Source: Bryobacteraceae bacterium (GTDB lineage Bacteria; Acidobacteriota; Terriglobia; Bryobacterales; Bryobacteraceae). Taken from it: a stretch of 33,158 nt of DNA. Position 1 is the first letter of the stretch. Each line of letters starts with the position of its first letter. Shown here piece after piece: positions 5,974-18,893 of the stretch. Location: the NCBI GenBank assembly GCA_030041495.1, contig JASHNT010000053.1, forward strand, positions 1 through 33,158, given 5' to 3'. A program made the position numbers and the translations under genes. Under the pieces are notes generated by a model. The model saw only the letters and a list, made by a program, of their open reading frames with translations. It searched no databases and was not told the origin of the DNA.

Positions 5974-8751
5974 ATGAAGCTTCGCGTTTTGGCTGCCCTG
6001 GCTCTCCTGCCCGTTCCGGTGTGGGCGCAAGCAGCCGGCGCGAGTTCCGGAGCCATCCACGGCTCGGTTCTGGATCCATCCGGAGCTTCTATCCCGAACG
6101 CGGCGGTTGAAATTCGCAACCCCGTCTCCGGCTACAGCCAGAAGGCGCAAACCGACACCGCCGGAGCATTCCACTTCGATAACGTTCCGTTCAATCCCTA
6201 CCACGTTCGCGTCACCGCCAGCGGATTCCAGGCTAGCGAGAGCGATACGGAAGTGAAGTCGACGGTCCCCGTTCAACTGGAGCCGATTACGCTACAGGTG
6301 GGCGCAGCCAAGGAGACTGTGAACGTGGTGGAGGCGGGCGATCTGATCGAGACCAATCCGGTGACGCATACCGATGTCGATCGGGCGCTGTTCGACAAGC
6401 TCCCGATCGAGAGTTCGACTTCTTCGTTGAGCTCGCTGGTGACGCTGGCATCGCCGGGAGTGACTGCGGATTCCAACGGGCTGTTTCACGGCCTGGGCGA
6501 TCACGCCTCCAACTCCTTTTCCGTGGATGGCGAACCGATTACGGATCAACAAAGCAAGGTCTTTTCCAATCAGCTTCCTTCCGACGCCGTGCAATCCATG
6601 GAGGTCATCGAAGGCGCGCCGCCCGCGGAATACGGCGACAAAACCAGCCTGGTGATCGTGGTGAATACACGCTCCGGGCTTGGCGCGACCCAGCCGCACG
6701 GCGATTTCACCAGCAGTTTCGGCACGTTCAACACCTACAACGAAGCCGGCGATTTTCTGATGGGCGGGAAATCCTGGGGGAATTTTATTTCGGTCAATGG
6801 GATGGACACCGGACGGTTTCTGGACACTCCCGAATTCAAAGTGATGCACGATCAGGGCAACCAGGGGAACCTGTTCGACCGGGTGGACTACAAACCGACC
6901 GTGGCGGATAGCATCACGCTCAATTTCGGCTACACCCGTTCCTGGTTTCAAACCCCCAATTCCTACGATGCACAGGACGCCACGGCCTGGTCCGGACCGC
7001 TGTGCGGCACTCTGTTTGATTATTCGGCCTCGTGCAACGGTTTGGGCCCGAACGGTCAGCCGGTGGGCGCGCAGGATCAGCGCTCGCAAATCCGCACTTT
7101 CAACCTCTCGCCCAGCTACACGCACCTGATCAATGCGTACACTGTGTTCACGTTTGGCGCGTACGCGCGGCAGGATCAATACAACTACTATCCCAGCCGC
7201 GACCCGTTTGCCGATCTGACGCCCGACCTCCAGCTTCAAACCGTAGGCCAGAGCCGCCGGCTGACCGATCTGGGATTGCGCAGCGACGTCTCCTATGTGA
7301 AAGGCGTGCACAACATCAAGATCGGCGCGAATTATTCGGATACGATTCTCAGTGAAGACGACCGCCTGGGGTTGGTGGATCCGGCGTTGAACGCTGTATG
7401 CTTGAACGCCAACGGCACCGCGGACCTGAATCCGCTGCTCACCAATCCGGCGGCATGTACCGGCGCGCTGCAGCCTAACCCGGCCTTCAATCCGTTGCTG
7501 GCCTGTTACGATCTGACGCGCACGGCTCCGTTGCCCGCTTCCGACGGCTGCCCCAATCCGACCAGCGGAGAGTACGCTTTCCTCGGTCACGCGGATATTC
7601 GTGAAATCGCTTTGTACGCCGAGGACACCATCAATCTGCACAATTGGACTTTCAACCTGGGCATACGCGGCGATATCTATCGCGGCATCACCAGCGCCAA
7701 CCAGGCCGAGCCGCGCCTGGGGATCTCGTATAACGTAAAGCCGACCCACACGGTGCTGCGCATTTCCTACGCGCGCACTCTGGAGACCCCGTTTAATGAG
7801 AATCTGGTGCTGGCGAGTGAAGGCTGCGCCAATCCGGTGGTCAACGCGATCATGACCTCCACGGTGAGCCCCTGCGTGACAACGGCGGCGCTAAGTCCGG
7901 GTTGGCGCAATGAGTTCCACGCCGGCTTGGAGCAGGCCTTCGGACGCTATTTCGTGGTGGACGCCGAATACATCTGGAAATACACGCACGGCGCGTACGA
8001 CTTCAGCGTGCTGGGCAACACGCCCATCACATTCCCAATCGAATGGGACAGCTCCAAGATTCCGGGCTACGCGATCCGCGGGACCATGCCCAACTTCCAC
8101 GGGCTGACGGCGTACGTAGTGATGTCCGGCGTGGCCGCGCGATTCTTCGAGCCGCAGATTTCCGGCATCGGCGCGACGCCTACGGGAAGCGAGGTGTTCC
8201 GCATCGATCACGATGAAGCCTTTAACCAGACCACGAATGCACAATATCAGCCGTGGAAGAATGGACCCTGGTTCAGCGTGAATTGGCGCTATGACAGCGG
8301 CATGGTGGCGGGAGCCGCGCCCTGCGCTGGAGGGAACTGCGCCAACGGACCTTTAGGCTCGGTCTCGCTCATCGATGCGTCGATTCTCTCTCCGGACCAG
8401 CAGTATCAGGCGGGGCTCTCCTGCGGAGGCGTGTACGCTACTCCGACCACCCCCATCAGCCCCAATAGCATCTGCCCCGCGGCGATGTATGGCTCGAAGT
8501 ATCTGAGCATCCCCACGCCGGGTACCGAGAATGACGATCATAATCCCAACCGCGTGGCCGGCCGCAATCTTTTCGACGTCGGTATCGGCGACGACAACCT
8601 GTTTCACGGCGACAAGCGCAAGTGGAGCGCGCGGCTGACCATCGTCAACATCACTGACAAAGAAGCGCTTTACAATTTCCTTTCCACCTTCAGCGGCACG
8701 CACTACGTTACGCCGCGGACGTTTACGGGCATGATCGGCTTCCATTTTTGA
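5974..8751 (+). CDS. TonB-dependent receptor, Oar-like
   Basis: An outer-membrane beta-barrel receptor of 925 residues. The signal peptide MKLRVLAALALLPVPVWAQ is followed by a carboxypeptidase-regulatory (Ig-like) domain at about 22-105 with the typical GSVLDPSGASIPNAAVEI and DTAGAFHFDNVPF motifs. The plug region (about 120-240) contains NSFSVDGEPITDQQSK and EVIEGAPPAEYGDKTSLVIVV. The remainder is a barrel with many aromatic alternating strands. The protein ends in GFHF, the aromatic C-terminus expected for barrel insertion. Acidobacterial relatives are often 1,000-1,200 residues, so this is a short member. The ATG at 5974 opens the signal peptide and has an AAGGAAAA site upstream. The ATG at 5917 would add 19 unsuitable residues. 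The ligand cannot be read from sequence. Confidence 0.93.
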   Translation: MKLRVLAALALLPVPVWAQAAGASSGAIHGSVLDPSGASIPNAAVEIRNPVSGYSQKAQTDTAGAFHFDNVPFNPYHVRVTASGFQASESDTEVKSTVPVQLEPITLQVGAAKETVNVVEAGDLIETNPVTHTDVDRALFDKLPIESSTSSLSSLVTLASPGVTADSNGLFHGLGDHASNSFSVDGEPITDQQSKVFSNQLPSDAVQSMEVIEGAPPAEYGDKTSLVIVVNTRSGLGATQPHGDFTSSFGTFNTYNEAGDFLMGGKSWGNFISVNGMDTGRFLDTPEFKVMHDQGNQGNLFDRVDYKPTVADSITLNFGYTRSWFQTPNSYDAQDATAWSGPLCGTLFDYSASCNGLGPNGQPVGAQDQRSQIRTFNLSPSYTHLINAYTVFTFGAYARQDQYNYYPSRDPFADLTPDLQLQTVGQSRRLTDLGLRSDVSYVKGVHNIKIGANYSDTILSEDDRLGLVDPALNAVCLNANGTADLNPLLTNPAACTGALQPNPAFNPLLACYDLTRTAPLPASDGCPNPTSGEYAFLGHADIREIALYAEDTINLHNWTFNLGIRGDIYRGITSANQAEPRLGISYNVKPTHTVLRISYARTLETPFNENLVLASEGCANPVVNAIMTSTVSPCVTTAALSPGWRNEFHAGLEQAFGRYFVVDAEYIWKYTHGAYDFSVLGNTPITFPIEWDSSKIPGYAIRGTMPNFHGLTAYVVMSGVAARFFEPQISGIGATPTGSEVFRIDHDEAFNQTTNAQYQPWKNGPWFSVNWRYDSGMVAGAAPCAGGNCANGPLGSVSLIDASILSPDQQYQAGLSCGGVYATPTTPISPNSICPAAMYGSKYLSIPTPGTENDDHNPNRVAGRNLFDVGIGDDNLFHGDKRKWSARLTIVNITDKEALYNFLSTFSGTHYVTPRTFTGMIGFHF

Positions 8752-8788
8752 TCTTCCACTTTTGACCTGGCGTTTTCGATCGAATCTG

Positions 8789-8797
8789 TGCTATCCT
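8789..8797 (+). promoter_or_regulatory. Putative extended -10 promoter of the his operon
   Basis: TGn followed by TATCCT (8792-8797) fits an extended -10 element. The same TGTGnTATCCT string occurs upstream of the radical SAM gene on the other strand. A start site about 7 nt downstream would fall near 8804, so the leader ATG at 8806 would be almost leaderless. A TTGACC at 8762-8767 is 24 nt from the -10, too far for a normal -35. Confidence 0.4.
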
Positions 8798-8805
8798 ACG
8801 CTTTC

Positions 8806-8862
8806 ATGTTCGCTGCGCGTCATCCTCACCATCCGCATCATGGCCATGCCGTGACGGGCTGA
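8806..8862 (+). CDS. hisL: His operon leader peptide (six His codons)
   Basis: A short frame, ATG to TGA, encodes MFAARHPHHPHHGHAVTG. Six of the ten residues at positions 6-15 are histidine (codons 8821-8847). Directly downstream lie a terminator hairpin and the first gene of a histidine operon. This is the hallmark of a leader peptide used for ribosome-mediated attenuation. With scarce charged tRNA-His the ribosome stalls inside the His run. With ample tRNA-His it reaches the stop codon and lets the terminator form. No Shine-Dalgarno sequence is visible before the ATG, and the putative transcription start lies only about 2 nt upstream. Initiation may therefore be leaderless. The gene is too short for routine annotation and is likely missed. 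His-run frame, terminator and operon agree, so confidence is high despite the size. Confidence 0.88.
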   Translation: MFAARHPHHPHHGHAVTG

Positions 8863-8902
8863 CGCGCGCGATCCTCCGATTTTGTGCACCTTGGACAGCC
8901 CG
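8855..8902 (+). promoter_or_regulatory. Anti-terminator pairing of the his attenuator
   Basis: Segment 8855-8861 (CGGGCTG), which includes the first two bases of the leader TGA, is perfectly complementary over 7 nt to 8896-8902. The latter covers the 5' arm of the terminator. The two structures are mutually exclusive. A ribosome stalled on the early His codons leaves 8855-8861 free to pair. A ribosome at the stop codon covers it, and the terminator folds. The pairing is read by eye; no folding energies were calculated. Confidence 0.7.
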
Positions 8903-8927
8903 CCGGAAACGGTGGGCTTTATTTTTT
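8897..8927 (+). terminator. His attenuator, rho-independent terminator
   Basis: Arms 8897-8905 and 8910-8918 pair over 9 bp with one G-U pair around a GAAA tetraloop. TTATTTTTT (8919-8927) follows immediately. This is a textbook intrinsic terminator placed between the His-rich leader frame and hisI. The hisI ribosome site (GGAG, 8931-8934) lies just past the T tract, so termination would prevent expression of the whole operon. Confidence 0.9.
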
Positions 8928-8938
8928 ACTGGAGATTT

Positions 8939-9313
8939 ATGGATCTGGACTTCACTAAACTCGACGGCCTTGTCGCCGCGGTCATACAGGATGCCACCAG
9001 CGGCCGCGTCCTGATGGTCGGCTTCATGAATCAGGAGGCGTTCCGCAAAACTGTGGAAAGCGGTTACGCGACGTTTTACAGCCGCTCCCGCAGCAAGCTG
9101 TGGCTGAAGGGCGAAAGCTCCGGCCATCGTCTGGTGGTGAAGGAGATCTCCACCGATTGCGATAAGGACACGGTGCTGTTGAAGGTGGACGCGCTAGGAC
9201 CGGGGGTCTGCCACGAGGGTTACCAAAGCTGCTTCTTCCGCCGCCTGGAAAACGGTGAATGGAAGGTGACTGAGGAGCGGGCGTACGACCCCGCGACCGT
9301 GTATGGGAACTGA
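8939..9313 (+). CDS. hisI: Phosphoribosyl-AMP cyclohydrolase
   Basis: Cytosolic enzyme of histidine synthesis that opens the adenine ring of phosphoribosyl-AMP to give ProFAR. The 124 residues are the stand-alone HisI form, without the HisE pyrophosphohydrolase domain. Visible family motifs are [10 protein letters not shown] near 28, [21 protein letters not shown] near 43-63 and [29 protein letters not shown] near 73-101. They supply the Cys and Asp residues that bind zinc and magnesium. The ATG at 8939 has a GGAG site 4 nt upstream. An in-frame ATG at 8882 would begin upstream of the attenuator hairpin and is rejected. It is the first enzyme gene of the operon and starts 11 nt after the attenuator T tract. 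hisG follows after 1 nt. Confidence 0.96.
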
Positions 9314-9314
9314 C

Positions 9315-10184
9315 ATGAAATTGAAACTCGGCATTCCCAAAGGGTCGCTCGAAAATGCGACCGTCGATCTATTCCGGCGCGCCGGTTTCCAGATCACCAC
9401 CAGCTCCCGTTCATATTTCCCGGGCATCGACGATCCGGAGATCGAGTGCATGTTGATTCGCGCGCAGGAGATGGCTCGTTACGTCGAGGACGGTGTGCTG
9501 GACGCCGGCCTTACGGGCCGCGATTGGGTGGAAGAAAACGAGGCCCAAGTGCAGACCGTCGCGGACCTCATCTACGCCAAGCAGAGCTTCGGCAAAGTGC
9601 GCTGGGTGCTGGCGGTGCCGGAGTCTTCGCGGTTTCAGTCGGTAAAGGATCTGGAGGGCAAGGTGATCGCCACGGAGTTGGTGCGCGCGACCGAGCGCTA
9701 TCTCAAAGCCAACGGCGTGACGGCGAAGGTCGAGTTCAGTTGGGGCGCGACCGAGGTCAAGCCTCCAGTGCTGGCGGACGCGATCGTCGAGGTAACGGAG
9801 ACCGGCTCTTCTCTGCGAGCCAACAAGCTGCGCATCGTGGAGACGGTGCTCGAATCGAACACGCAGTTGATCGCCAATGCGGACGCGTGGGGTTCAACCT
9901 GGAAACATCGCAAGCTGTGTGACATCAAGATGCTGCTGGAGGGCGCGATCGCCGCGATGGGCAAGGTGGGTTTGATGCTCAACGTGGAAAAGAAGCATCT
10001 GGACGCCGTGCTGCAAGTGCTTCCGGCATTGAAGAAGCCGACCATCTCTCCGCTGAGCGATGGCGATTGGCTGGCGCTGAACACGATTCTCGATGAATCG
10101 ACCGTGCGCTCCATCATCCCGCGGCTTAAAGACGCCGGAGCGCAAGGTATCGTCGAATATCCGTTGAACAAAATCGTAATGTAA
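9315..10184 (+). CDS. hisG: ATP phosphoribosyltransferase, long form
   Basis: Catalyses the first committed step of histidine synthesis, joining ATP and PRPP. The 289 residues match the long form, with a C-terminal regulatory domain that binds histidine for feedback inhibition. The C-terminal domain is recognisable from about 215 ([13 protein letters not shown]) to the end ([11 protein letters not shown]), so no HisZ partner is required. N-terminal motifs include [12 protein letters not shown] at 4-15 and [10 protein letters not shown] near 60. The PRPP loop [13 protein letters not shown] lies near 160. The ATG at 9315 begins directly at the family N-terminus. The ATG at 9303 would add four residues inside hisI. 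The hisG stop overlaps the hisD start by 1 nt (TAATG). Confidence 0.96.
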
Positions 10185-11437
10185 TGATCCGGTTACTGGA
10201 ACACAGAGACGCGAGCGTTCTGCTCTCACGCAAGGCGGTGCGCCTCGCAGAGGCCGAGCGTACGGTCGCCCCGATTCTTGAAGCCGTGCGCACGCGCGGC
10301 GACGCGGCGCTGCTCGAATACGCGCGTAAGTTCGACGGCTTCGAAGGCTCTTCCGTACGCATCCAACCGCACGGCGAGCTAGACCCGGCTTTCGAGCGTG
10401 CCGTGTTCACGGCCGCGGCGAATATTCGCGACTACGCGAAGTTCCAACTTCCGCAGGAACGTTTCGTGGATTATCCGGACGGACGGCGGCTCGGCCACAT
10501 CGTCCGGCCTCTGGATTCGATGGGCGCGTACACGCCGGCGGGCCGCTATCCTCTGCCTTCGACATTGCTGATGAACGTGATTCCAGCGCAGGTGGCCGGA
10601 GTAAAGACGACGTGCGTGGCCTGTCCGCGGCCCAGCAAGGAGATTTTGGGATTAGCGGCGTGGCTGGGCGTGACGCATTTCTTCCAGATGGGCGGCGCGC
10701 AGGCCATCGCCGCGCTGGCCTACGGAACCGAAACGGTGCCACGAGTCGAGCGCATCGTCGGGCCGGGGAATATTTACGTTGCGGCGGCGAAGAAACTCAT
10801 CGCGGGAGAAACCGGCATCGACTTTGTCGCGGGGCCGACGGAGATCGTCATCATCGCCGCCGAGGGCAATCCCAAATGGATCGCGGCCGACATTCTGGCG
10901 CAGGCCGAGCACGATGTGGACGCGTCGGCAATCCTGCTGACGACTTCGCAAAGGCTGGCGGAAGCCGTCGCGGCGGAAGTGGAACGGCAGCTCGAGGTAC
11001 TGCCGACGGCTAATGTTGCGCGGCCCTCGATCGACGCCAACGGAGCCATCGTCATCACCGCGAGCTTGGAGCAAGCCGTTGAATTCTCCAACAGCCTGGC
11101 CCCGGAGCATCTCGCGTTGCACGATCCTTCGCTGCTGCCGTCGATACAAAATGCGGGTTCGGTATTTTTAGGGCCGGTGAGTCCGGAAGCCGCGGGCGAT
11201 TATGCCTCCGGCCCCAATCACGTATTGCCGACCTCGGGAGCGGCCCGCCTACGAGGAGGCCTCTCTTCGGCCGATTTCGTCAAAGTCATCTCGGTGCAGG
11301 AATTGCAGCCGGCGGCGCTGGCGCGCCTGGCGCCGGCGATCACCACGCTGGCTCGCGCGGAGGGACTGGAGGCGCATGCGCGGTCTGTCGAAGCCCGGCA
11401 GGGCGGAGCCGTTGGAAATGAGGCGCGCCAATCATGA
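10184..11437 (+). CDS. hisD: Histidinol dehydrogenase
   Basis: Zinc- and NAD-dependent cytosolic enzyme that oxidises histidinol to histidine in two steps, the last reactions of the pathway. The 417 residues contain YTPAGRYPLPS near 116, NIYVAAAKKLI near 196 and AEHDVDA near 241. Expected zinc ligands are Gln240, His243, Asp339 and His398. The catalytic Glu308-His309 pair lies in LAPEHLALHD. Everything needed for activity is in place. The ATG overlaps the hisG stop by 1 nt. The TGA overlaps the hisC ATG by 4 nt (ATGA), indicating translational coupling. The C-terminal tail after 400 is short and not conserved. Confidence 0.96.
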   Translation: MIRLLEHRDASVLLSRKAVRLAEAERTVAPILEAVRTRGDAALLEYARKFDGFEGSSVRIQPHGELDPAFERAVFTAAANIRDYAKFQLPQERFVDYPDGRRLGHIVRPLDSMGAYTPAGRYPLPSTLLMNVIPAQVAGVKTTCVACPRPSKEILGLAAWLGVTHFFQMGGAQAIAALAYGTETVPRVERIVGPGNIYVAAAKKLIAGETGIDFVAGPTEIVIIAAEGNPKWIAADILAQAEHDVDASAILLTTSQRLAEAVAAEVERQLEVLPTANVARPSIDANGAIVITASLEQAVEFSNSLAPEHLALHDPSLLPSIQNAGSVFLGPVSPEAAGDYASGPNHVLPTSGAARLRGGLSSADFVKVISVQELQPAALARLAPAITTLARAEGLEAHARSVEARQGGAVGNEARQS

Positions 11438-12486
11438 TCGAGCCTCGCGAAGCCGTGCGCCGCATGGCGCCCTATTCGCCGCCCGCGGGCGGGCGCGAGG
11501 GAAAGCTGCGGCTGGACTTCAACGAGAACACCGTCGGCTGTTCCTCCGCGGTGATCGAGGCGCTGCGTGCGTATCTGACCGCGGATCATCTGTCCATTTA
11601 TCCCGAATACGCCGCGGCATTGCGCGACCTTGCGGCAGTTTTCAACGTGGCGGGCGACGAATTCACACTCACGAACGGCACCGACGAGGCGATCCAGCTT
11701 CTGGTGAACACGTTCGTGGGCGATCGCGGCGAGGTGTTGGTCATGCATCCTTCCTACGCGATGTACAGGTTCTACACCCAGCTTGCAGGCTCCCCAGTGC
11801 GCGAGATCGAGTATCCGGCGGATTTGCAATTTCCTCTGGACAAGTTTCTCGCCGCGATCGGGCCGGCCACGCGCGGCATTCTGATCGCGAATCCCAACAA
11901 CCCCACCGGAAGCGCGATCGGAACGGAGGAGATCCGCCGGATTCTTGACGCCGCTCCGGACGCCGTGGTGCTGATTGACGAAGCCTACTTCGATTTTTTT
12001 GGCGTGACCGCGCTCGATTGGATCCGGGAACGGCGCAACCTGTTTGTCAGCCGCACGTTTTCGAAAGTCCATGGGATGGCGGCGATGCGATGCGGCTGCC
12101 TGTTTTCTTGCGCGGAGAATATGCAATGGATTCGCAAGGCGCAATCGCCTTACAGCGTGAACTCCCTGGCCGTGGTCGCCGCGCGGGCCGCCGTCAGGGA
12201 CACGGAATACGTCCAGCAATACGTCGCCGAAGTGTTGGAGTCCCGCGAGCTAGTCTATCGGGGCCTGGAGCAGTTGGGGATTCCCTTTTTTCGGAGTCAG
12301 GCCAACTTCGTGCTGATGCGTCTGGGCGGCCGCGCGATTCCGATTCGCGATGCGTTGCGCGGGCGCGGAGTGCTGGTGCGCGACCGCAGCTACGAAATCG
12401 CGGGGTGTGTGCGGGTCACGTTGGGGCCGCGAGCGGCAACCGGACGCTTCCTGACTGAGCTGGAGAAATTATGGACTCAGTCATAG
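11434..12486 (+). CDS. hisC: Histidinol-phosphate aminotransferase
   Basis: PLP-dependent fold-type I aminotransferase that converts imidazole-acetol phosphate to histidinol phosphate with glutamate as amino donor. The 350 residues carry the usual motifs. LDFNENTVG near 28 is a variant of the LDxNENPxG motif, and NPNNPTG lies at 153-159. DEAYFDF begins at 182 with the PLP-binding Asp, and the Schiff-base Lys is Lys211 in TFSKVHGMAAMRCG. The substrate-phosphate Arg is likely in the SQANFVLMRLG to GCVRVTLG region near the C-terminus. It overlaps hisD by 4 nt and the downstream HAD gene by 16 nt, an unusually deep overlap for this operon. Confidence 0.94.
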   Translation: MIEPREAVRRMAPYSPPAGGREGKLRLDFNENTVGCSSAVIEALRAYLTADHLSIYPEYAAALRDLAAVFNVAGDEFTLTNGTDEAIQLLVNTFVGDRGEVLVMHPSYAMYRFYTQLAGSPVREIEYPADLQFPLDKFLAAIGPATRGILIANPNNPTGSAIGTEEIRRILDAAPDAVVLIDEAYFDFFGVTALDWIRERRNLFVSRTFSKVHGMAAMRCGCLFSCAENMQWIRKAQSPYSVNSLAVVAARAAVRDTEYVQQYVAEVLESRELVYRGLEQLGIPFFRSQANFVLMRLGGRAIPIRDALRGRGVLVRDRSYEIAGCVRVTLGPRAATGRFLTELEKLWTQS

Positions 12487-13151
12487 TCTTCGATATGGAT
12501 GGTGTTCTGGCCGAGGTCACCGGTTCCTACCGCGCGGCCATCATCGAGACGGTCGCGCACTTCACTGGCCAACGCGTGTCGCACGATTTCGTGCAGCAGT
12601 ATAAGAACGCCGGCGGCTGGAACAATGACTGGGCGCTGTCGCAAAAAATTGCCGCGGACCTGGGTGTCGCGGTGGACTACGATGCAGTGGTCGATTATTT
12701 CAATCGCATTTTTCTGGGCGAAAACGGGAATGGATTGATCGGCCGCGAATCCTGGATTCCAGGCCCCGGGTTGCTGGACCGTCTGCAAGCGCGCTTCGAT
12801 CTGGCGATCTTCACCGGCCGGCTGCGCTATGAGCTGGATATCACTCTCGCGCGCTTCGCCTCCGGTCTGCGTTTCGATCCCATCATCTGCGCCGAACACG
12901 TCGCGAATCCGAAACCCGCTCCGGACGGCTTGCTGGCCATCCAGCGCATGAAGCCGGGACGTAAGTTATGGTACGTCGGCGACACGGTCGATGACGCGCG
13001 CGCGGCCAGTGCCGCGCAAGTGCCGTTCATCGGGGTCATCGCGAAAGGCCACTCGCGAGCCGCCGAGCTGGCCGAGCTGTTCCGTCAGGAAAAAGCCGCG
13101 GGCGTGGTCGAGAACGTCAATCAGATCGAATCGGTATTGGGGGCGGCATGA
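12471..13151 (+). CDS. HAD-IA hydrolase, candidate histidinol-phosphate phosphatase
   Basis: A 226-residue haloacid-dehalogenase-fold phosphatase embedded in the his operon. All four HAD motifs are present. The first is DMDGV with nucleophile Asp8 and acid/base Asp10, and the second is TGR with Thr115. Lys148 lies in NPKPAP, and GDTVDD spans 170-175. A helical cap occupies about residues 15-95 (class C1). Histidine synthesis needs a phosphatase that makes histidinol. This operon's hisB is dehydratase-only and no hisN or PHP-type hisK is present, so this enzyme is the best local candidate. That assignment is inference from context and chemistry. The substrate could instead be a side product, with the enzyme acting in phosphate-ester repair. 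It overlaps hisC by 16 nt and hisB by 4 nt, so it is clearly part of the operon. Confidence 0.85.
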
Positions 13152-13735
13152 GGAAAGCCGCGCTGGAGCGCAACACGAAAGAGACGCAGATTCGCGGAAG
13201 TCTGCGGATCGAAGGCCGGGGAACGTACAACATTTCCACCGGAATCCGTTTCCTGGATCACATGCTGGAATTGTTCGCCAAGCATGGCGGGTTCGACCTG
13301 ACTCTGCAGGCTCAGGGCGACCTGGACGTGGACCAGCACCACACGGTGGAGGATTGCGGCATCGTGCTCGGGCAGTTGTTTTTACAGGCTCTCGGCGACC
13401 GCCGCGGCATCAATCGAGCCGGCTACTTCGTGCTTCCCATGGATGAAACGCTCGCGGTGGTTGCAGTCGACCTGGGGGGACGGCCGGCGCTGGTCTACAA
13501 GGACCTGGTGAAGACGCGGCTGGTGGGCGACCTGCAAACCGAGCTGCTGGAGGATTTCTTCGGAGGGTTCGTCAACCACGTGGGCGGAAATCTGCACGCG
13601 AAAGTACTCTACGGCCGGTCCAATCACCACAAGATCGAAGCGATCTTCAAGTGTTTCGCGCGCGCCATGCGCTATGCGTGCTCGAAAGACGCGCGGCTCA
13701 AGAAGCAGTTGCCTTCGACCAAGGGGCTGTTATGA
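13148..13735 (+). CDS. hisB: Imidazoleglycerol-phosphate dehydratase
   Basis: Manganese-dependent cytosolic enzyme that dehydrates imidazole-glycerol phosphate to imidazole-acetol phosphate. At 195 residues it is the monofunctional form, without the N-terminal phosphatase of enterobacterial HisB. Metal-binding motifs are [13 protein letters not shown] at 35-47, [10 protein letters not shown] at 62-71 and the later HVGGNLHAK and SNHHKIEA segments. Start and stop both overlap the neighbours by 4 nt (ATGA on both sides). The absence of a phosphatase domain is what makes the preceding HAD gene interesting. Confidence 0.96.
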
Positions 13736-14325
13736 TCGCGGTGCTGGATTACGGAGCGGGTAATCTTCAAAGCGTCCGCAACACTTTGGATTCGATCGGC
13801 GCGAAGTATGAGCTGACGCGTTCCGGCGAAGGGCTGCGGCGAGCCTCGAAAATTATTCTTCCGGGTGTGGGGCACTTCGGGCAGATCATGCGGGCTCTCG
13901 GCGAGTTGGACGTCCGTGAGACGCTGACCGGCCGCATCCGCTCCGGAGTGCCGTTCCTGGGCATCTGTCTGGGATTGCAGGCGCTGTTCACGTCGAGCGA
14001 GGAGGCGCCCGAAGAGGATGGACTGGGAATCTTCCGGGGAACTGTCGCGCGCTTTCAAGGCAAGCTGCGCATTCCGCACATGGGCTGGGATCAAATCGAG
14101 CCGGTGCGCGAATCGCGGCTACTGCGCGGGCTCGGCCAATCGCCCTATTTTTATTTTGCCCACAGCTACTACTGCCCGGTTGTCGCGGCGTCGGCGGCCA
14201 CTTGCACTTACATGGTTCCGTACACAGCCGTGCTCGAGCAGGACAATGTCTTCGGCGTTCAATTCCATCCCGAGAAATCGGGCGAACTGGGCCAAATCGT
14301 CGTGCGTAATTTCATCGAGGCTTGA
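13732..14325 (+). CDS. hisH: Imidazole glycerol phosphate synthase, glutaminase subunit
   Basis: Class I glutamine amidotransferase that releases ammonia from glutamine and channels it to HisF. The 197 residues include [13 protein letters not shown] at the N-terminus and PGVGHFG near 44 (oxyanion region). The nucleophile is Cys79 in GICLGLQ. The His179/Glu181 pair lies in [11 protein letters not shown], completing the catalytic triad. HSYY near 144 is also typical. The start at 13732 overlaps the hisB stop (ATGA) and begins exactly at the family N-terminus. A longer frame from 13651 would run inside hisB. hisF follows after 3 nt, consistent with the obligate HisFH complex. Confidence 0.95.
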
Positions 14326-14328
14326 GGC

Positions 14329-15096
14329 ATGCTGGCGAAGCGCATCATTCCCTGCCTGGACGTCACCGCCGGCCGCGTGGTCAAGGGCGTGAATTTCGTG
14401 AACCTGCGGGACGCGGGCGATCCAGTGGAGCTCGCGGCGCGCTACAACGAGCAAGGCGCCGATGAGCTGGTCTTCCTCGACATTACGGCCTCCAGTGACG
14501 ATCGCGACACCATGGTGGAGGTGGTGGCTCGCACGGCGCGCCAGGTGTTCATTCCTCTGACCGTCGGAGGAGGGATTCGCTCCGTCAGCGACGCCAGGAG
14601 CATTCTGCACGCGGGCGCGGACAAAGTCAGCGTAAACACGGCCGCGGTCCGCCGCGCTGAGTTGATCTCGGAATTAAGCGCCGAATTCGGAGCGCAGGCG
14701 GTGGTTTTGGCCATCGATGCCCGCCGGCGCAAGGATCGCGAGGGTTGGAATGTCTTCACACGCGGCGGGCGGCACGATGAGGGAATCGACGCCGTGGAAT
14801 GGGCCCGCCGCGGGGAGGAGCTGGGAGCGGGAGAGATTCTGCTGACTTCCATGGATACCGACGGCGTGCAAACCGGGTTCGACTGTCCTCTAACCCGCGC
14901 GGTGCGCCGGGCAACCAGTATTCCGGTGATCGCGTCGGGCGGGGCAGGGAAGGCGGAGGATTTCTTCGAGGTGCTCTCCAGCCAGGGGGCGGGGGCCGAT
15001 GCCGCCCTGGCGGCGTCTATCTTCCACTACGGCACCTATACGGTCGCCGATCTCAAGAGCTTCCTTCGCGGGAGGAACGTTCCGGTCCGGTCATGA
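14329..15096 (+). CDS. hisF: Imidazole glycerol phosphate synthase, cyclase subunit
   Basis: TIM-barrel partner of HisH. It uses channelled ammonia to convert PRFAR into imidazole-glycerol phosphate and AICAR, the latter feeding purine synthesis. The 255 residues have the catalytic Asp11 in IIPCLDV and Asp129 in VLAIDAR. The duplicated half-barrel pattern is visible, with LVFLDIT near 46, TVGGGIRS near 77 and VIASGGAG near 200. A GAGG ribosome site overlaps the end of hisH. The TGA overlaps the hisA ATG by 4 nt. Confidence 0.96.
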
Positions 15097-18803: not shown

Positions 18804-18893
18804 TGGCGGAGAGGGAGGGATTCGAACCCTCGTTAGAGTTTCCCCTAAACACGCTTTCCAAGCGTGCGCCTTCAGCCGCTCGGCCACCTCTCC
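18804..18893 (-). tRNA. tRNA-Ser(GGA)
   Basis: On the minus strand the acceptor stem GGAGAGG (18893-18887) pairs with CCTCTCC (18814-18808). It is followed by the discriminator G and an encoded CCA (18806-18804). The D arm (GCCGAGCGGCTGAAGGC) has the serine-type form. The anticodon arm CACGC TTGGAAA GCGTG gives anticodon GGA, reading UCU and UCC. A long variable arm (TTTAGGGGAAACTCTAA) and the TTCGAAT loop confirm a class II tRNA. A short T tract (TTTTT) begins 4 nt after the CCA. Confidence 0.97.

Follow-up and report, generated by a model that had tools for sequence, protein, structure and literature searches.

The window analyzed here, a stretch of 33,158 nucleotides that is part of a 6.1-Mb draft genome, contains a histidine biosynthesis operon preceded by a very short, histidine-rich open reading frame (ORF) and a hairpin. 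This arrangement raises the question of whether translation of the short ORF governs transcription of the operon behind it. From sequence and comparison we regard it as very likely that the region is a ribosome-mediated transcription attenuator of the his operon in a Bryobacterales-like (Acidobacteriota) bacterium.

All features of the window described below lie on the forward strand unless stated otherwise. The initial annotation had placed hisI behind the terminator at the head of the operon, and this is confirmed: an ATG at 8939 opens the first structural gene (8939-9313), encoding a phosphoribosyl-AMP cyclohydrolase that matches NF000768 (NCBIfam, E = 3.7e-45) and PF01502. It is followed by hisG (9303-10184, with its start at 9303 or 9315; TIGR00070, E = 2e-53), hisD (10184-11437; TIGR00069), hisC (11434-12486; TIGR01141, 0.25 bit below the cut-off), a HAD hydrolase gene (12471-13151; PF13419/PF00702, with TIGR01548 below its cut-off), hisB for imidazoleglycerol-phosphate dehydratase (13148-13735; NF002111), hisH (13651-14325; TIGR01855, matching from residue 29 of the ORF, about 13735) and hisF (14329-15096; TIGR00735). 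The gene order after the attenuator is therefore hisI-hisG-hisD-hisC-HAD-hisB-hisH-hisF. From its position between hisC and hisB, the HAD hydrolase is a candidate histidinol-phosphatase. None of the eight operon ORFs scanned (8939-15096) is hisA or hisE, which may sit elsewhere in the genome. Upstream of the leader, a TonB-receptor-like gene on the same strand ends at 8751.

The leader ORF (8806-8862) runs from an ATG at 8806 to a TGA at 8860-8862 and encodes the 18-residue peptide MFAARHPHHPHHGHAVTG. Six of its 18 codons specify histidine (codons 6, 8, 9, 11, 12 and 14), and sequence and ribosome-mask folding point to the stretch they span, 8821-8847, as the proposed sensor region. An intrinsic terminator, the attenuator proper, follows at 8897-8927, in which AGCCCGCCG (8897-8905) and CGGTGGGCT (8910-8918) form a 9-bp stem that includes one G-U pair and is closed by a GAAA loop, with a T-rich tract running to 8927. 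The last leader codons overlap segment 2, CGGGCTG (8855-8861), which is the exact reverse complement of segment 3, CAGCCCG (8896-8902); the latter overlaps the 5' arm of the terminator, so that segment 2 is the 5' half of an antiterminator. The initial annotation had read the frame with its six histidines, the terminator and the 7-nt complementarity in just this way, and all three are borne out by the sequence. The minimum-energy fold adds a helix that it lacked, between segment 1, GCGCGTCA (8815-8822), and TGACGCGC (8860-8867), which forms without a ribosome and corresponds to the 1:2 helix of textbook attenuators; the window thus holds all three alternative helices of a textbook attenuator, the 1:2 helix being one that is not strong in every relative. 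Overall, positions 8806-8927 fold at -52.1 kcal/mol against a mean of -38.6 for shuffled sequences (z = -4.3), and none of 200 shuffles is equally stable.

From these parts we infer the point at which transcription begins, a translated leader on which ribosomes stall, termination, and a response to histidine, in the following sequence of events. The first ribosome would load on the leaderless 5' end at the leader AUG. When His-tRNA is plentiful, the ribosome would reach the stop codon at 8860-8862 and cover segment 2 (8855-8861), leaving segment 3 (8896-8902) to form the terminator, and transcription would end before hisI. When His-tRNA is short, the ribosome would wait on the His codons at 8821-8847, segment 2 would pair with segment 3, and this pairing would pre-empt the terminator so that RNA polymerase reads into hisIGDC-HAD-hisBHF.

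If this arrangement is functional, it should recur in relatives. From 588 confirmed loci we took the best 80 as a named set, of which 75 have a hisI match together with hisG; L017, L029 and L033 were left out for want of a hisI match (their sequences begin within 75 nt of the hisG match), as were L063 and L070, with no hisI in the available flank. A histidine-rich short ORF precedes hisI in 70 of these 75 testable loci, counting L030, which has a complete leader and terminator and two unread bases in hisI, and L035, whose hairpin lacks a T tract. A leader with at least four His codons is absent in the other five (L048, L052, L059, L064 and L080); L080 has three His residues, as judged by eye. 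In L048 and L059 the promoter box is followed almost at once by the terminator, and the leader is seemingly deleted, through either a real loss or an assembly error. When the 75 loci and the window were scanned for terminators, L030, L035, L052 and L059 had none by the criterion used, leaving 72; removal of L048, L064 and L080, which have fewer than four His codons, gave the 69 loci (68 and the window) used in the pairing, promoter and mask tests below. A GC-rich, T-tract hairpin therefore lies between a leader of at least four His codons and hisI in 69 of 76 loci of the named set, window included, and L030 adds one more leader with a T-tract hairpin. The His cluster recurs in the 69, as does a hairpin 20-47 nt downstream of the stop codon; the leader peptides otherwise diverge strongly, as seen in MFVARHHRHHHHHHFGAIRAHA (L002), MALRTVAHHPHHHTRRAIF (L022) and MIRTVTHHRHHHSSHRAECQRADA (L073). 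The CAT and CAC codons are mixed, 222 to 182 in the leaders as against 57 to 139 in hisI. A His cluster that is kept while the flanking residues change, with its two codons mixed, is as expected for selection on the residue, and in this sense the His codons are conserved among relatives, a point that the initial annotation had proposed to check.

The proposed switch also demands that the tail of each leader match the arm of its own terminator. Leader lengths differ too much for a trustworthy alignment, so instead of counting paired columns we computed the duplex between each leader tail and its own terminator arm and permuted the tails against the arms of other loci. Over the 69 loci the own duplexes sum to -1454 kcal/mol, whereas the permutation mean is -1282 (sd 22; 0/5000 permutations as good), an advantage of 172 kcal/mol. 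Relatedness among the loci is partly controlled, through a non-redundant set of 28 loci in which the sums are -608.5 and -526.9 (sd 14; 0/20000). Real tails average -21.1 as against -15.4 for shuffled tails; 65 of the 69 beat the mean of their own shuffles, with p at or below 0.05 in 44 and above it in 25, while pairing in L013, L028, L056 and L071 is no better than that of their own shuffles. Similarly, 53 tails pair better than the mean over the tails of other loci and 16 do not. Matching pairs can be read by eye in L073 (GTCAGCGGGC in the leader, GCCCGCTGAC in the hairpin), L079 (CGGCAG and CTGCCG) and L077 (GCCGGG and CCCGGC). Tails and arms thus co-vary among relatives, which is the comparison that the initial annotation had put forward.

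To follow the switch itself, we folded the RNA of the 69 loci with a mask of 13 nt, beginning at the first A-site base, in place of the ribosome. On average the 5' arm of the terminator pairs upstream with a probability of 0.85 when the ribosome is at its best His position and of 0.25 when it has reached the stop codon, a drop that partly reflects the shorter RNA remaining there. This probability is at least 0.5 at the best His position in 69/69 loci and below 0.5 at the stop codon in 61/69; the change is in the expected direction in all 69, and 65 loci combine a value of 0.5 or more at that His position with a fall of at least 0.3 by the stop codon. In the window the corresponding values are 0.99 and 0.44, and ribosome positions from codon 8 to codon 13 keep the arm paired at 0.65-0.99. 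Here the antiterminator excludes the terminator, and its 5' half is computed to be free with the ribosome at the His codons and covered with the ribosome at the stop, except that a ribosome on codon 14, the last His, leaves the arm mostly free (0.41), which we count against the model. The claim that two exclusive folds exist and that ribosome position sets the switch between them is nevertheless supported by mask folding across the 69 loci.

Two further results of the folding are counted against the model. In the window the finished terminator is the favored state at equilibrium wherever the ribosome stands (0.81-0.98), so the choice would have to be kinetic, made while RNA polymerase moves. 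Textbook attenuators likewise switch kinetically. Without a ribosome, the antiterminator has a mean probability of 0.67 over the 69 loci (0.46 in the window), from which a strong protector helix does not appear to be general. The region of the stop codon pairs with the 5' part of the leader at a probability of at least 0.3 in 45/69 loci, and the 1:2 helix is not strongly conserved.

An extended -10 element, TGC-TATCCT (TGCTATCCT; 8789-8797, hexamer 8792-8797), ends 8 nt before the leader ATG. The pattern TGnTAnnnT lies 7-10 nt 5' of the leader start in 49 of the 69 loci; over all start codons of this DNA the figure is 73 of 57706. The choice of leader start codons, scripted here and in the phylum sample and made by hand for the TAnnnT count given below, favored a -10 box, which makes the spacing statistic slightly circular, though it is far above background. 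Shine-Dalgarno-like 4-mers stand upstream of 5/69 leaders and 25/69 hisI genes. Since most loci have a -10 box at a distance of 7-10 nt from the start codon, the leader ORF is probably leaderless; judging from this spacing, its transcript probably starts at the AUG or at most two bases earlier. Pyrimidines make up 80-86% at the three positions preceding the leader start codon in the named set, so the A of the AUG is often the first start purine there, a pattern that fails for many leaders of the phylum sample described below. Among 37 leaders of that sample (those known before L107 and L110 were added), 32 show TAnnnT at a distance of 7-10 nt from the start, a spacing shared by 1.05% of all start codons of these loci. 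Five or six bases of TTGACA are matched another 16-19 nt upstream in 23 of the 32, and many promoters of the sample look TTGACA-type. L107 and L110 carry a TAnnnT box at the same spacing. Neither a promoter directly before the start codon nor the distribution across the phylum was part of the initial annotation.

Leaderless genes are not rare in the phylum, amounting to 13.3% on average in three Acidobacteria genomes according to a passage of PMC3160421. The genome to which the window belongs has 32 sites of the form TATACT-N7-9-ATG compared with 15 for a reversed control pattern, and 14 of the 20 sites inspected lead into ORFs longer than the stretch inspected; this excess and the long ORFs suggest that leaderless mRNAs are common in this genome. 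Some of the ORFs at such sites have N-termini resembling export signals.

The promoter-like box also bears on a trivial explanation, in which the short frame is histidine-rich by chance and the hairpin is the terminator of the TonB-receptor-like gene that ends at 8751. That gene is on the same strand, and by eye there is no second T-tract hairpin between 8751 and 8939. The box, however, stands between the gene and the leader, and conservation and co-variation over the loci refute a chance frame as far as sequence can, which leaves this explanation vanishingly improbable. The parts of the attenuator, their conservation, the pairing with its co-variation and the position of the promoter are established by sequence and comparison.

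We then asked how widely such leaders occur in Acidobacteriota. Of 198 genomes searched, 126 have hisI, and from these 60 loci were hand-picked, one to several per family and not at random: 28 operons beginning with hisI, 26 beginning with another his gene, two at a contig edge (L097 and L129) and four with a lone hisI (L108, L116, L123 and L141). One of the loci, L082, is apparently the same contig as L003 of the named set (both 38375 nt). A His leader precedes 27 of the 28 operons of this hand-picked sample that begin hisI-hisG, L104 being the one without. The initial annotation had made its reading depend on relatives keeping the frame and the terminator before hisI, and with this count beside the 70 of 75 named loci, the frame is indeed kept. 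Among the 26 operons of the sample that start with another his gene, 12 have a His leader: ten were found just upstream of the first matched gene, directly before hisG or hisD, and extension of the search to 4 kb upstream added L107 and L110, where the leader lies about 1 kb upstream of hisG, before hisZ. No leader was found within 4 kb upstream of the remaining 14 of these 26 (330 nt in the case of L098). The hisG-, hisD- and hisZ-first variants occur in other families of the phylum. The comparison indicates that the trait is common and independent of gene order, yet missing from several families.

Two of the loci in which no leader was found carry genes for YerC/YecD regulators, related to TrpR, beside hisG (L099, 3136-3450, forward strand; L133, 10780-11124, reverse strand), which possibly act there in place of an attenuator. 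In L122 and L126, short ORFs upstream of hisG (MTHSEPNQALRTSSLGLSTGIIVVGLVLIIGVGVTGPA is discussed below for another operon; here they are MDFVEKYFIKYCFIKSSLHRN and MIGKIEYYIKYCLTKTCLH) stand just downstream of a promoter-like box and are by eye rich in Tyr, Ile and Cys rather than His; they are possibly leaders for another signal.

The specificity of the arrangement can be gauged in the same 60 loci (1,629,256 nt, both strands). In 27 of them a short ORF with at least four clustered His codons, together with a terminator, is found no more than 500 nt upstream of a his gene; the rest of that DNA has four such pairs, two of the four being the hisZ-hisG leaders of L107 and L110, which leaves two. 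This distribution bears on the proposal that the product of the short ORF is a functional His-rich micropeptide, perhaps metal-binding, whose gene merely lies beside the his operon, and that the hairpin is an ordinary terminator. Peptides with 4-9 His do recur at the same place, and a trans-acting leader peptide, peTrpL, is known from passages of PMC7298713. A micropeptide would sit poorly, however, with sequences that diverge apart from the His residues and vary in length, with C-terminal codons that track complementarity to the terminator arm, and with an ORF-terminator unit that is all but confined, in these loci, to the regions before his operons; we consider it highly improbable.

By the criterion of our script, no T-tract hairpin is present in L101, L135, L103, L112, L115, L119 and L132, a number to be read as an upper bound on missing terminators, since the finder missed hairpins such as that of L090, in which five T can be read. 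Several of the leaders without one by this criterion precede hisG-first operons. Such loci would suit a control at the level of translation or of Rho, in which leader translation would uncover or mask the beginning of the first gene and the hairpin would be no true terminator, at least where it lacks a T tract; mycobacterial polycysteine short ORFs (sORFs) are described, in a passage of PMC9031893, as controlling downstream translation. Given that 69 of the 76 named-set loci, and L030 in addition, have a T-tract hairpin whose 5' arm co-varies with the leader, this alternative has a slim chance compared with ribosome-mediated transcription attenuation.

Ten further loci were chosen on purpose for tandem and hisD-first cases; of these, L170, L177 and L178 have a leader, L171-L175 have none, and L176 and L179 lie at a contig edge. 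Tandem His leaders, each with its own T-tract terminator, precede hisG in L111 and L170, which share a genus label. In L124, which bears another family label, hisG is preceded by a pair of His-rich ORFs and a pair of hairpins, the first hairpin without a clear T tract.

Leaders for other amino acids may also exist in the genome of the window. Upstream of ilvB, on the minus strand of L146 (G000:C12), a short ORF rich in branched-chain residues, MTHSEPNQALRTSSLGLSTGIIVVGLVLIIGVGVTGPA, is followed by a hairpin with a T-rich tail and is a probable branched-chain amino acid attenuator, as read from its sequence. No obvious leader was seen by eye upstream of a trpE match (L142) or of two leuA-like matches (L143 and L144).

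Placement of the uncultured, Bryobacterales-like host in Acidobacteriota is well supported. A HisG tree of 81 proteins puts the window together with L039 (Terriglobia bacterium) and L002 (Bryobacterales bacterium; 89% identity) at a support of 96/84, and most of the best 80 named contigs are labelled Acidobacteria, Bryobacterales or Bryobacteraceae, which supports the initial guess of an acidobacterial host. Five contigs of metagenome-assembled genomes (L029, L046, L047, L057 and L072) are labelled Actinobacteria, Acidimicrobium, Acidimicrobiaceae or Ferrithrix and have a G+C content of 46-52% as against 61% for the window. In the HisG tree they make up a fully supported clade (100/100) that falls within Acidobacteriota next to the window trio, with nesting support of 83/73 and 84/90; a His leader is present in four of them, and the sequence of L029 begins at hisG. 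Either these are mislabelled bins or the operon and its attenuator moved between phyla. As to other labels, L003 is titled Bordetella parapertussis, which is wrong, and those of L052 (Chthoniobacterales) and of L069 and L079 (Armatimonadota) within the Acidobacteriota HisG tree are unexplained.

These observations can be drawn together in a broader, tentative scenario, which we hold to be possible but on balance rather doubtful. The leaderless His attenuator would be ancient and widespread in Acidobacteriota, would have outlasted changes in gene order (hisI-, hisG-, hisD- and hisZ-first operons) and may have moved with the operon into Acidimicrobiia. Its default, without a ribosome on the 5'-terminal AUG, would be the antiterminator, so that the switch would read 70S loading as well as His-tRNA, and it would have been duplicated in series in at least two lineages (L111/L170 and L124). 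If so, duplicated His attenuators could give a steeper or a two-threshold response to one amino acid, and the tandem pairs offer a way to ask what two like sensors in series do. More immediately, the analysis suggests a likely function for these His-rich short leader ORFs and a candidate histidine-responsive control element for the phylum, and it provides many natural variants of one probable leaderless attenuator with which to test how RNA polymerase is coupled to 70S initiation on a 5'-terminal AUG.

How does this element relate to known ones? Across the window, the sole Rfam match at the gathering level is a tRNA gene (18807-18893, reverse strand), with no his leader. At E <= 5, positions 8760-8960 gave eight chance-level matches, none to a his-leader family. 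A T-box or metabolite riboswitch was considered as well and rejected, no such Rfam family appearing at gathering or at E <= 5. The covariance model of the Rfam His_leader (RF00514) does not match, so we do not file the element in that family; by function it is classed as a ribosome-mediated transcription attenuator. The initial annotation likened the element to E. coli his attenuation, which is apt as to the logic but not as to membership of the Rfam leader family (no match at E <= 5).

With the hisL leader of E. coli and Salmonella the element shares a short His-rich ORF and alternative antiterminator and terminator folds before a his operon. The enteric operon starts with hisG, whereas that of the window starts with hisI; the enteric leader has a 5' UTR and a ribosome-binding site, whereas the acidobacterial one is probably leaderless; and the 1:2 protector helix does not seem to be general among the acidobacterial relatives. 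In E. coli the default without a ribosome is termination, while many of the relatives here are predicted to be antiterminated. The enteric leader peptide has 18 amino acids with seven consecutive His, according to a passage of PMC3896937.

The leaderless feature is not new in kind, since leader peptides whose transcript starts at the AUG are described in passages on trpL of S. meliloti (PMC7298713) and on leuL, trpL, ilvL, thrL and metL of Streptomyces lividans (PMC8079986); these sense amino acids other than histidine and belong to different phyla. For S. lividans eight leader peptides are listed, none of them a His leader (PMC8079986), and a 2005 paper reports that histidine operons of Actinobacteria have no conserved RNA element upstream (PMC1262725). 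The leaderless mycobacterial polycysteine sORFs (Canestrari et al. 2020, cited in PMC13236596), which PMC9031893 and PMC9094748 describe as sensing cysteine, likewise use a run of one codon in a leaderless short ORF to sense that amino acid; they differ in sensing cysteine, in belonging to Actinobacteria and in being described as controlling translation of downstream genes (PMC9031893). In bacilli, His leader peptides occur upstream of hisZ and hisS, as passages of PMC2965389 and PMC4833913 report; they share the run of His codons in a short ORF, and L107 and L110 also stand before hisZ, although the bacilli belong to Firmicutes. The mgtCBR leader of Salmonella has two short ORFs and two attenuators in series for two different signals (PMC3641672); the L111/L170 and L124 arrangements share the serial attenuators, with the difference that an acidobacterial pair would sense one signal twice. 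For Acidobacteria, among other groups, PMC4833913 notes a peak, near structural genes, in the occurrence of short leader genes.

The initial annotation had called such control poorly documented in this phylum, and in agreement with this no report of a his attenuator in Acidobacteria is found among the matches listed, in a literature with few subscription papers. The Lyubetsky and Gelfand groups have reportedly carried out comparative work that may touch Acidobacteriota. His attenuators and leaderless leader peptides are each known from other bacteria; the present element, very likely a His attenuator and with a probably leaderless sensor ORF, is apparently widespread in Acidobacteriota.
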